From assembly GCA_903945325.1 (NCBI GenBank), contig CAJAVE010000298.1:1-34177 (forward strand): 34,177 bases of DNA, read 5' to 3'. The notes beneath the pieces were generated by a model. That model ran no database searches. It was not told the DNA's origin and worked only from the letters and a program-made list of their open reading frames with translations. Below, piece after piece: positions 9,728-24,552 of this stretch. How positions within the stretch are numbered: the stretch's first letter is position 1; every line of letters starts with the position of its first letter. The DNA comes from an uncultured beta proteobacterium (GTDB lineage: Bacteria; Pseudomonadota; Gammaproteobacteria; Burkholderiales; Burkholderiaceae_C). Both the position numbers and the translations under genes were made by a program.

Positions 9728-11356
9728 TCAAAGAAGGAAGCCAGTGTTGATGAAGGTTGATTTGTGCTCGCGCACGATCGTGTTCAGCATGGCTTTGCTC
9801 TGCTCCGATTGCTTGGTGGCAATCATGGAGCGGATGGAAAAGGCCCGCAGTGCGTCCGACACCGACAGGGTGCCCTCGGCGGAATCCTTGCGCCCGGCAA
9901 AAGGGAAAACATCAGGACCGCGCTGGCACTGGCAATTGATGTTGACCCGGCACACCTGATTCACCAGCGGATCGACCAGCGCACCAATCATGTCGGCATC
10001 GTTGCTGAACACGCTGACCTGTTGGCCATGCTCGGAGGTGATGACGTACTGCAGCGCTTCTTCAACGTCGTCGAAGGCGAACACCGGTACGATTGGGCCG
10101 AACTGCTCTTCGCGGTAGAGCTTCATCCCTTCGCGCACCGGGTAGACCAGGGCCGGGTAGAACAAGGTGCTGCAAAACGCGCCGCCGCCGTCGTTGATGA
10201 CGCGTGCGCCCTGGGCTGTGGCGTCGTCAATCGCCGCCGTCATGTAGGCACTGCGGTGTGGACCCGGCAAGGGTGTGATGTTGACGCCCGGCTCCCACGG
10301 CATCCCGACCTTGAGCTGGCCCAGGGCCACGGTAAGGCGGCCCAGGAACTCGTCCACGATCGAACGGTGCACGATCAGCATCTTGAGCGCGGTGCAGCGC
10401 TGCCCGTTGAACGACAGGGCGCCGAGCAGACACTCGCGCACCGCTAAATCCAGATTGGCGTCCGGCAGGACGATCGCGGCATTCTTGGCATCCAGCCCCA
10501 GAATGGCTCGCAGGCGATTCGACTTGGGGTGTTGCTTCTTCAGGTGATCGGCCACGCGGCTCGAGCCGATGAGCGCCAGCACGTTGATCTTGCCAGACGC
10601 CAGCATGTGCGGCACCACGACTTCGCCGGGCGCATAGATGGTGTTGATGACGCCTTTCGGAAAGGCGCTGCGAAAGGCTTCGAGCAGCGGTTGGAACAAC
10701 AGGGTGCCGTATTGTGGCGGCTTGAACACGATCGTATTGCCCATCAGCAAAGCGGGAATCAGCGTGCAGAAGGTTTCGTTGAGCGGGTAGTTATAAGGGC
10801 CCATGCACAGCACGACACCGAGCGGCGTGCGACGCACTTGCCCGATCGTGCCTTCGACCACGATAAAGCGCGAGTTGGCGTTGTCCATCTCCTTGAGCGC
10901 CTCGACTGTGGCCTGAATATAGTCCACGGTGCGGTCAAATTCCTTGCGCGAGTCGGCCAGACTCTTGCCGACCTCCCACATGATCAGCTTCACGATCAGC
11001 GTACGCTGCGCGACCACCTGCTTCACAAATGCCTGCATGCAGTCGATGCGCCCGGCCACGCCCATGGTCGGCCACTCACCGCGCCCGTTGTTGTAGGCGG
11101 CCACGGCGGCCTCCAGCATCTGGTCACTCTCAGTCACGCCCATTTCCGGGTGGCTGCCGATTTCGGCCTGCGTCACGCTCCCGTCCGCGTGTCGGATGCA
11201 GACCGGCGACAGCACGGTCTTGGTCGCGCCCGTCCATGGCACCATGTCACCGTTGATAACATAGCTGACTTGATGAATTGGGGCGTCCAGCCGGTGCTCG
11301 GCGGGAATTTCCTCCAGACTAGGGAACAGCTGGCTTAGGCTTTCGGAATTGATCAT
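9728..11356 (-). CDS. gapN: NADP-dependent non-phosphorylating glyceraldehyde-3-phosphate dehydrogenase
   Basis: Aldehyde-dehydrogenase superfamily protein of 542 residues, closest in memory to GapN-type enzymes that oxidise glyceraldehyde-3-phosphate directly to 3-phosphoglycerate with NADP, without making 1,3-bisphosphoglycerate or ATP. Seen: [16 protein letters not shown] (catalytic Asn near 189), nucleophile Cys321 in [11 protein letters not shown], and near the C-terminus [14 protein letters not shown], which resembles the GapN substrate-binding end. Where most aldehyde dehydrogenases have E-L-G-G-K, this protein reads [10 protein letters not shown], so the general base may be Asp289 or lie elsewhere. 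About 30 residues extend beyond the usual end. The start at 11356 is supported by TGGAG upstream. It is 27 bp downstream of enolase, in a pyk-eno-gapN run, which supports a lower-glycolysis role. A generic aldehyde dehydrogenase cannot be fully excluded. Confidence 0.83.
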
Positions 11357-11383
11357 GATTGACTCCAGAAGATGTGAATTTAC

Positions 11384-12670
11384 TCAGGACTTACCGGGAA
11401 ACGCCGAGCGCCCCCGGTAGACGGCTACAGCGCCAAGGTCCGCTTCAATCAACAGCAGACGGTTGTATTTGGCAACCCGGTCCGAGCGGCACAATGAGCC
11501 GGTCTTGATCTGGGTGGCCAGCGTGCAGACGCTGAGGTCGGCAATGGTGGTGTCTTCGGTTTCCCCGGAGCGGTGCGAAATCACAGAGCTGTAGCCCGCC
11601 TCGTCCGCCATCGTGATCGCGGCCAGGGTTTCAGTCAGCGTACCAATCTGGTTGAGTTTGATCAGGATCGAGTTGGCTACACCGGCCTTGATCCCTTCCG
11701 AGAGAATGCTGGTGTTGGTGACAAACAGGTCATCGCCCACCAGTTGGACGCGCTGCCCAAGCTTCTCGGTCAGCAGCTTCCAGCCAGCCCAGTCATCTTC
11801 GGCCATGCCGTCTTCGATGGTGATGATCGGGTATTGATCAACCCAGCTTGCCAGGTAGTCGGTGAATTGGGCCGAGTCGAACGTCTTGCCTTCGGATGCC
11901 AAGACGTACTGGCCATTGATGTAAAACTCCGAGCTGGCCAGGTCCAGCCCCAGGCTGATATCGGTGCCAACCTGGTAGCCCGCCGTGGTGATGGCCTCCA
12001 GAATAATTTCGAGCGCCGCCTCGTTCGACGGCAGATCGGGTGCGAAGCCGCCTTCATCGCCGACCGTGGTGGACAGACCGCGGGCGTTGAGCAGGCTTTT
12101 CAGCGCATGGAATACTTCGACGCCCCAGCGCAGGGCTTCCGCGAAGCTGGGCGCGCCCACCGGCAGGATCATGAACTCCTGCATGTCCACGTTGTTGCTG
12201 GCATGGGCACCGCCATTGATGATGTTCATCATGGGGACTGGCAACTGCATCGGCGAACCTGCCATTTTGAGGTGCCGGTAGAGTGGCTTGCCGGCAGAGG
12301 CGGCGGCGGCCTTGGCTGAAGCCAGCGACACAGCGAGCAGGGCATTGGCCCCGAGGCGGGATTTGGTGGGCGTACCGTCAAGCTCAATCATGAGCCGGTC
12401 CACGCTGGCTTGATCCATGGCGTCGCGCCCCAGCAGCGCTTTACGCAGCTCGCTATTGACGTGGGCCACAGCACCCAAGACGCCCTTGCCCAGATAGCGG
12501 CGCGGGTCGCCGTCGCGCAGCTCCAGCGCTTCACGTGAACCGGTGGAGGCGCCTGAGGGTGAGGCGGCGAAACCGCGGGCGCCGTTTTCGAGGATCACCT
12601 CGGCGGCGACAGTGGGATTTCCACGCGAATCCAGAATTTCAAAACCGCGAACTTGTTGAATCAATGCCAT
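11384..12670 (-). CDS. eno: Enolase
   Basis: Phosphopyruvate hydratase (2-phosphoglycerate to phosphoenolpyruvate), 428 residues, the usual length. The ATG at 12670 gives the conserved start [20 protein letters not shown] with GGAG upstream; the frame is open further upstream but not enolase-like. Motifs: [17 protein letters not shown] (mobile loop), [63 protein letters not shown] with the catalytic Lys, and SHRSGETED. It sits between pyk (71 bp upstream) and gapN on the same strand. The usual betaproteobacterial housekeeping eno lies beside pyrG/kdsA, so this island copy is probably a second, acquired enolase. Confidence 0.95.
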
Positions 12671-23000: not shown

Positions 23001-23058
23001 TAGCGAGCGCTTTTTTTCCTGCCGATGGCTATTTCTGAATGTTTTGAGGATTTAAACA

Positions 23059-24552
23059 ATGACCTATTTACTCGCCTTGGATCAGGGCACTTCCAGTTCG
23101 CGAAGTATCGTTTTTGATGACCAGGGACGGACAGTTGCCCATGCGCAGCAGGAGTTGACGCAAATATATCCACAACCGGGTTGGGTGGAGCACGACCCGC
23201 AAGAAATATGGCGTACCCAGTTGGCCACTGCCCGCGAAGCCTTAACCAAAGCGGGTCTTGCCGCGCACCAGATTCAGGCTGTTGGAATCACCAACCAGCG
23301 CGAAACTACCGTGGTCTGGAACCGCAAAACGGGATTGCCGATTCATAACGCCATCGTTTGGCAAGACCGGCGGGCTGAACCGACTTGTGTCGAATTGCGC
23401 GAGCGTGGTTTGGCCCCGGAAATCCAGTCGAAAACCGGTCTACTGGTGGATGCCTACTTTTCTGGTACCAAGCTAAAGTGGCTTCTGGACCATGTGCCAC
23501 TGGCACGGGAACACGCAGCCAATGGGGATTTGGCATTCGGCACCGTGGATAGCTGGCTCATATGGCGGCTGACCGGTGGTGCAGTGCACGCCACCGATGT
23601 CAGCAACGCATCGCGCTCCATGCTTTTTAACGTGCATACCAACGAATGGGATACCGACCTTCTTAAAGCGTTGGATATTCCCACAAACATGATGCCCCGT
23701 GTGAGGCCGTCCAGCGCCTTGTTTGGAGAACTCTCGCCTGACTTGCTTGGGCACGCCATCCCCATCGGCGGCGTTGCGGGCGATCAACAAAGTGCATTGT
23801 TTGGGCAGGCCTGTTTTAGCGCTGGAATGGTCAAAAACACCTACGGCACTGGGTGCTTCATGCTCATGCATACCGGTGCTACGTTTCAAACCTCTCGCAA
23901 CGGACTCATCACGACCAGCGCTGCACAACCAACGGCACAGCCTGAATTTGCCATCGAGGGAAGCGTCTTTGTGGGCGGGGCAGTAGTGCAATGGCTGCGC
24001 GACGGTTTGCACGCCATTCGGGACAGCAGCGAGGTCCAGGCATTGGCCCAAAGCGTGCCAGACGCCGGGGGGATTTTTGTGGTGCCGGCTTTCACCGGTT
24101 TGGGTGCGCCGTACTGGAAGCCCGATGCGCGTGGGAGTATTAACGGCCTCACCCGGGGGAGCACGGTGGCGCACATAGCGCGAGCCGCACTCGAAAGTAT
24201 TGCCTACCAAAGCGCCGCATTGCTGCAGGCGATGAGTCGCGATGCGGTTGCTGGTGGCGGTGTTCCGGTGGCTGAGCTGAGGGTCGACGGCGGGGCCAGT
24301 GTCAACGACCTTTTGATGCAATTCCAGGCAGACCTTTTAGGCATCCCTGTGGTGCGCCCCGCTGTCACCGAAACGACGGCTTTGGGTGCGGCTTACCTCG
24401 CAGGCTTGTGTGTGGGTATCTACAAAAACACCGAAGAATTGTCAGGACTTTGGAGATCTGAACGGAGATTCATCCCAAGTATCACGCCCGAACGCGCACA
24501 AGAGTTAATGCTCCGTTGGGAACATGCCGTGAGGCAAACGGTACAGAGCTGA
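23059..24552 (+). CDS. glpK: Glycerol kinase
   Basis: FGGY-family kinase of 497 residues (E. coli GlpK has 502) that phosphorylates glycerol to glycerol-3-phosphate. Motifs: [15 protein letters not shown] (phosphate 1 loop), [59 protein letters not shown] and [25 protein letters not shown] lies 9 bases before the ATG. It follows glpR and probably shares its transcript. With GlpD and the importer it forms the glycerol entry route. A 7-bp hairpin (CAGCATG/CATGCTG, 24564-24581) lies just after the stop, without a T run. Confidence 0.96.

Follow-up and report, generated by a model that had tools for sequence, protein, structure and literature searches.

A maf-inserted tyrosine-integrase island joins a glycerol operon to a pyk-eno-gapN cassette, a probable route from glycerol to pyruvate

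Introduction

The ATP-binding cassette (ABC) glycerol importers closest to the one described here, GlpSTPQUV of Rhizobium leguminosarum VF39 and Rmet_2229-2234 of Cupriavidus metallidurans CH34, combine a single binding protein with one small membrane protein, a pair of permeases and a pair of ATPases, according to the available part of PMC7912956. For streptococcal GapN, the non-phosphorylating glyceraldehyde-3-phosphate dehydrogenase, the available text of PMC8886048 names R437 as substrate-binding and E250 of the Streptococcus pyogenes enzyme as the catalytic glutamate, and a review of sources of reduced nicotinamide adenine dinucleotide phosphate (NADPH) mentions, in its available part, GapN from photosynthetic eukaryotes, Gram-positive bacteria and archaea (PMC4518329). 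Here we analyze a 34,177-nucleotide stretch (the window) from an uncultured beta proteobacterium of the Burkholderiaceae_C, in which a genomic island carries both a GlpSTPQUV-type system and a gene for a GapN-like enzyme. The window is the entire contig CAJAVE010000298.1 (C298) of a 4.69-Mb draft genome in 394 contigs (GCA_903945325.1; 90.45% complete, 2.03% contamination). We consider it probable that the island joins its glycerol system to a recurrent GapN cassette as a route from glycerol to pyruvate.

Results

The island cargo is a composite, in which a glycerol operon of the kind found in the genus is joined to a pyk-eno-gapN set. On the minus strand the genes would be transcribed in the order glpS, glpT, glpP, glpQ, glpU, glpV, glpD, pyk, eno and gapN-like, with glpR and glpK on the opposite strand. 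The ABC importer (16082-22068) comprises the ATPases GlpS (20992-22068) and GlpT (19914-21098; both PF00005), the permeases GlpP (19024-19917) and GlpQ (18219-19058; both PF00528), the small membrane protein GlpU (17898-18206; DUF2160, PF09928) and the glycerol-binding protein GlpV (16082-17827; SBP_bac_8). Next comes glpD, encoding glycerol-3-phosphate dehydrogenase (14398-16041; intact, with a family match), and on the plus strand lie the DeoR-type repressor gene glpR (22200-23000; PF00455, PF08220) and the glycerol kinase gene glpK (23059-24552; TIGR01311, 689 bits, above the cut-off). The window therefore holds the complete set S, T, P, Q, U and V together with R, D and K. The operon is typical of the genus: its gene order is repeated in seven same-genus loci as far as their contigs reach, with proteins 67-96% identical (87-91% for GlpV). 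Two further partial glpV homologues are present in the host (G000:C271:1-1341, 71%; G000:C161:3166-3630, 62%).

Directly downstream of glpD and in the same direction are pyk, a pyruvate kinase gene (12742-14160; TIGR01064, 498 bits), the enolase gene eno (11384-12670; TIGR01060, 642 bits; 67% identical to the host eno) and the gene for a GapN-like aldehyde dehydrogenase with the motif LGLDAKN (9728-11356), identified by family, structure and alignment matches. The spacing is operon-like, with 71 bases between pyk and eno and 27 between eno and gapN. Downstream of gapN, also on the minus strand, is a broken remnant of a phosphoenolpyruvate carboxylase gene, ppc (9322-9720; PF00311, 30.5 bits against a cut-off of 22.4; 43% identity over 65 amino acids to the ppc of locus L074, E 2e-8). 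A sequence-only reading of this DNA had proposed that a mobile, integrase-borne element carries a glycerol importer, kinase, repressor, GlpD, GapN, enolase and pyruvate kinase; each of these genes has an intact reading frame, from start codon to stop codon, on the strand then given.

That reading placed its module at 9728-24552. We found a larger element, extending from about 8250 to 34167, which is a tyrosine-integrase genomic island with the 3' end of maf as its insertion site. Its left attachment site is the displaced C-terminal end of maf (8184-8261, minus strand), which reads SYSGIMGLPLFETAQALRSIGFAL up to the stop and contains the core CCCATGATGCC at 8239-8249. This end adjoins the chromosomal gene rng (RNase G; 6684-8159, minus strand; PF10150), with which the listed copies from the genus share 80-94% identity, and the remainder of maf is not there. 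The right attachment site is a second, island-side maf end (34112-34177, minus strand), which reads GIMGLPLFETAELLRAKGFKI up to the stop, differs in sequence from the left end, and adjoins the integrase gene (32721-33977, minus strand; PF00589, PF13356, phrog_1). The maf 3' end is thus present on both sides as a target-site duplication, with the core CCCATGATGCC in common. The right end runs on into contig C5, whose first 141 bases are an exact match to the end of the window and which holds the rest of maf followed by rlmH and rsfS, and these three genes are 83, 95 and 93% identical to those of a same-genus locus (L210). No insert separates rng from maf in any of the 17 same-genus loci examined, where the distance from the maf stop to the start of the rng match ranges from a 19-base overlap to 25 bases. 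Together, the integrase, the maf ends on both sides, the overlap with C5 and the empty sites argue strongly that the island is mobile, as had been proposed.

Short TACGC-containing repeats lie at both ends of the island, on the left at 8285-8312 (plus strand; TACGC at 8293 and 8305) and on the right at 33982-34100 (plus strand; three copies of AAAACCTACGCC and two of GTTACGC), and they would fit integrase arm sites. The window ends at the exact base where the two attachment sites part (34167-34177 compared with 8239-8250), with T in C5 and G at 8250. Such a contig break is expected if some molecules were circular after excision and is suggestive of that, among other possible causes. A related integrase occurs in 23 other genomes of the family. 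We considered a family of maf-inserted islands and set it aside: in the 18 loci fetched, with integrases at most 60% identical, tblastn detected no maf, some stretches ending near the integrase. We also looked on plasmids for near-identical island copies; no plasmid record covered 80% of the query.

The pyk and gapN genes of the island are of foreign origin. The window pyk falls inside a clade of gapN-linked pyk genes with support of 99, apart from chromosomal pyk, and is 55-68% identical to gapN-linked pyk and 39% to the host's own. The placement of the window pyk was the same with and without one row of this tree (G258). The window eno sits on a long branch without firm placement. The host pyk and host eno fall inside their own genus in the trees. 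We rejected the reading that the island eno and pyk are the only ones of the host; they are extra copies, in a host that has its own eno, pyk and a gapA-type sequence. A strong gapN match is present in 9 of 399 genomes of the family, the source genome included, and in 60 relatives the best matches have E values of 2.8e-45 or weaker, at about 25-32% identity among the matches listed. Copies 61-79% identical occur in Burkholderia, Paraburkholderia, Polaromonas, Acinetobacter, Afipia, Microvirga, Azoarcus and Bacteroidota. We rejected a viral source for gapN, as no relative was confirmed in scans of IMG/VR; phage records searched with a GapN-like protein from a Pseudomonas plasmid gave two matches, both labelled Acinetobacter phage MD-2021a.

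The enzyme encoded at 9728-11356 groups with GapN. Its 11 best sequence matches in the PDB are all GapN structures (195-222 bits, the next match scoring 143), and the 19 nearest folds to its predicted model (mean predicted local distance difference test score 79) are GapN as well. We aligned it with 83 relatives, having set aside from 85 rows two that are truncated fragments of the window gene itself, and with 21 control aldehyde dehydrogenases. The nucleophile Cys321 and the oxyanion Asn189 are present in the window protein and in every relative. R142, Y190, R320 and R479 are likewise kept in all 83 relatives, compared with 5, 4, 5 and 0 of the controls. They correspond to the Arg/Tyr positions expected to bind the substrate in streptococcal GapN, R437 among them. 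A position that presumably bears on preference for NADP carries Glu or Asp in 15 of the 21 controls and Gln in 45, Lys in 19 and Arg in 19 of the relatives. Plasmid records label the family NADP-dependent glyceraldehyde-3-phosphate dehydrogenase. Given its nearest structures by sequence and by fold, the kept Arg/Tyr positions and its gene neighbors, we rejected the possibility that the gene encodes an unrelated aldehyde dehydrogenase.

We used tblastn to survey the surroundings of gapN in other genomes, removing 4 same-genome duplicates from 88 loci; of 587 confirmed stretches in the search for relatives, the best 80 were kept. At least one of seven pathway genes (pyk, eno, ppc, edd, eda, zwf and pgi) lies near gapN in 38 of the remaining 84 loci and in none of 46 control loci, the two sets totalling 1.65 Mb and 0.58 Mb, respectively. 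Across the 84 loci we counted zwf 20 times, eda 16, edd 15 and ppc 5, and glpK with glpD once. The neighborhoods include edd-eda-gntP-gntK-gapN in Acinetobacter, uxaC-eda-gapN in Sphingobacterium, edd-eda-pyk-gapN-eno-ppc clusters in Azoarcus-like bacteria, and zwf, pgi, edd, eda, pyk and eno around betaproteobacterial copies.

Among 72,556 plasmid records, 20 carry a gapN relative, and we read the neighbors in 10 of them (in one, which lacks annotation, they were assigned by tblastn alone). Four have pyk near gapN, three eno, three glpK with glpD, and one edd-eda-zwf. The combination recurs most fully on the Pseudomonas aeruginosa plasmid pAFM-PA19-3158 (NZ_CP140112), in the order aquaporin-glpK-glpR-glpD-pyk-eno-tpiA-gapN-gpmI, which makes up the whole route, with the two steps missing from the window. 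Two Microvirga plasmids have glpK and glpD near gapN, and two Cupriavidus plasmids have pyk-gapN-ppc-eno. On plasmid I of Cupriavidus taiwanensis (L325), which is typed as conjugative, tpiA and gpmA lie a few genes away from pyk-gapN-ppc-eno. The P. aeruginosa pyk is 37% identical to the window pyk and 53-56% to chromosomal pyk of the order, and the plasmid glpD is 32% identical to that of the window (E 3e-36). Because of this divergence in pyk and glpD, the two sets look separately assembled, with the placement of the plasmid pyk unsure, as the tree tool warned that its long branch may be misplaced. We found no description of a pyk-eno-gapN/glp cassette in the literature searched, a set thin in subscription journals.

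The island carries further genes. An IS66-family element with 29-nucleotide inverted ends occupies 25107-27622. The adjoining stretch 27623-28350 holds a gene for a ParE-type toxin (PF05016 above the cut-off), immediately preceded by what is likely its partner gene, and the two probably form a toxin-antitoxin pair. A primase/helicase-like protein of 1017 amino acids (29059-32112, minus strand) matches phrog_16593 (DNA primase), phrog_19930 and phrog_29234 and has no Pfam match, and an AlpA-type regulator or excisionase is encoded at 32483-32755 (plus strand; PF05930 above the cut-off, phrog_66). Dense GCCTGTC repeats in 31- and 69-nucleotide units fill 8596-8990, between the left end and the ppc remnant.

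Discussion

We propose that the island would take up glycerol through its GlpR-controlled ABC importer, phosphorylate it with GlpK to glycerol-3-phosphate and oxidize this with GlpD to dihydroxyacetone phosphate, which host TpiA would convert to glyceraldehyde-3-phosphate. The downstream module, which appears to derive from a recurrent GapN cassette of Entner-Doudoroff, tetronate and glycerol pathways, would then act. Its GapN-like enzyme would presumably convert glyceraldehyde-3-phosphate into 3-phosphoglycerate in one irreversible oxidation, so that the GapA and Pgk steps are skipped. A host phosphoglycerate mutase presumably follows, and the island enolase and pyruvate kinase would complete the route to pyruvate. 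If the modules are co-expressed, glycerol carbon would be pulled forward outside host regulation, probably with a gain of NADPH that could benefit the cell. The existence of such a set on the P. aeruginosa plasmid makes this pathway more probable.

Several observations weigh against such a route, beginning with its host. This bacterium has its own eno, pyk and tpi, two pgk genes and a gapA-type sequence, the last in two pieces on contigs C84 and C295, and the only match in the genome to the triosephosphate isomerase family lies on a contig other than the window. The earlier suggestion of cargo suited to hosts with weak lower glycolysis does not describe it. Nor is the module self-contained, as had been suggested: two plasmid TpiA sequences, one GpmI and one GpmA found no match in the window at E 0.1, in agreement with the sequence-only reading that triosephosphate isomerase and phosphoglycerate mutase are missing. 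The join itself is marked by a 237-base gap between glpD and pyk, with no promoter found there by a scan that returned one promoter-like site against 6.3 expected and 16 terminator-like sites against 15.5 expected. In the five of the seven same-genus glp loci that extend past glpD, no pyk, eno or gapN lies beside the operon, and none of the seven pathway genes is near gapN in 46 of the 84 loci, nor any related gene in 3 of the 10 plasmid loci read. Because typical loci of the genus lack the cassette past glpD, the join could be accidental: a glycerol operon and a decaying Entner-Doudoroff-type cluster (pyk-eno-gapN-ppc) would have been acquired separately and share no function. The ppc remnant, the difference in GC content between the glp genes (54.9%) and pyk-eno-gapN (61.7%), and the more frequent company of gapN with zwf, edd and eda than with glpK and glpD would all suit such chance neighbors. 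Against this, pyk, eno and gapN are intact, co-directional and placed straight after glpD. The order glpD-pyk-eno-gapN also recurs on the P. aeruginosa plasmid, where pyk belongs to a different lineage. We regard an accidental juxtaposition as unlikely. That the source genome is a 394-contig draft also counts against the proposal, and its draft state, completeness and contamination estimate leave some room for a chimeric contig or one from another organism; such an artefact is very improbable, as the genes flanking the island on either side are those usual in the genus (rng at up to 94%, and maf, rlmH and rsfS of C5) and the attachment-site logic is exact at both ends.

The chemistry of the dehydrogenase bears on the proposed glycerol-to-pyruvate route as well. 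The position of the catalytic Glu is Gly287 in the window protein and Gly in all 83 relatives, compared with Glu in 20 of the 21 controls, and the motif LGL(D/E)AKN replaces LELGGK (residues 281-293, window 10480-10520), with AKN in every relative. Because this Glu is Gly across the aligned family, the chemistry may differ from that of GapN. The enzyme might instead transfer an acyl group to coenzyme A (CoA) or phosphate, or use a different phosphorylated or sulfonated aldehyde as its substrate. The catalytic Glu is likewise missing from CoA-acylating methylmalonate-semialdehyde dehydrogenases and from one control with an AKN motif (L017). In addition, the protein stays below the NCBIfam cut-offs, and the models for lactaldehyde (209 bits) and sulfoacetaldehyde (195) dehydrogenases score higher than the one for archaeal GapN, which comes third (186). 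However, the closest solved structures are GapN, the Arg/Tyr positions set the family apart from the controls, and many of the genome contexts would yield glyceraldehyde-3-phosphate. An Asp or Glu two residues beyond the Gly (Asp289 in the window protein), found in 80 of the 83 relatives, might replace the missing general base; the predicted model has low certainty in this part of the active site. A different reaction seems to us improbable, more so than an accidental join.

Core glycolytic enzymes are usually regarded as vertically inherited and as poor cargo. Here, extra copies of eno and pyk travel on a precisely inserted island with an aldehyde dehydrogenase that would bypass the reversible GapA and Pgk steps, and a similar set on a Pseudomonas plasmid, with pyk of another lineage, makes portable central metabolism a testable idea. 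The locus also draws attention to an enzyme family annotated as NADP-dependent glyceraldehyde-3-phosphate dehydrogenase that nevertheless lacks the general base of GapN. More tentatively, bacteria may exchange a portable triose-phosphate-to-pyruvate cassette built around this unrecognized GapN branch without the canonical catalytic Glu and fitted to Entner-Doudoroff, tetronate and glycerol front ends. The glycerol version would then have been assembled at least twice from non-orthologous parts, and an incoming island could impose a glycolysis that runs only forward and escapes control by the host, even where the cell is already equipped with a glycolysis of its own.

Compared with described systems, the island importer has the composition of those of R. 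leguminosarum and C. metallidurans, and glpR, glpD and glpK lie nearby as they do in those loci, as far as the available part of PMC7912956 describes them. The same part of that source gives the R. leguminosarum locus as plasmid-borne, unlike the integrase island here, and makes no mention of pyk, eno or gapN for either locus. The set on pAFM-PA19-3158 resembles ours in that glpK, glpR, glpD, pyk, eno and gapN lie together, with a site-specific integrase next to them, and the relative order glpD-pyk-eno-gapN is common to both. It differs in having an MIP/aquaporin gene in place of the ABC importer and in carrying tpiA and gpmI; its gapN is 54% identical to that of the window, and its pyk is nearer the chromosomal lineage. 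The Cupriavidus plasmid and Azoarcus-like clusters contain homologous pyk, eno and gapN, plus the ppc that is a remnant in the window, but their gene order differs and their neighbors suggest tetronate or Entner-Doudoroff catabolism rather than that of glycerol. Canonical streptococcal GapN (PMC8886048; 1EUH, 7PKJ, 9RAZ) shares with the window enzyme the fold, the catalytic Cys, the oxyanion Asn and the substrate-binding Arg/Tyr positions, whereas E250 is replaced by Gly in the window family, identity is about 30%, and the window protein is longer (542 compared with 475 residues).

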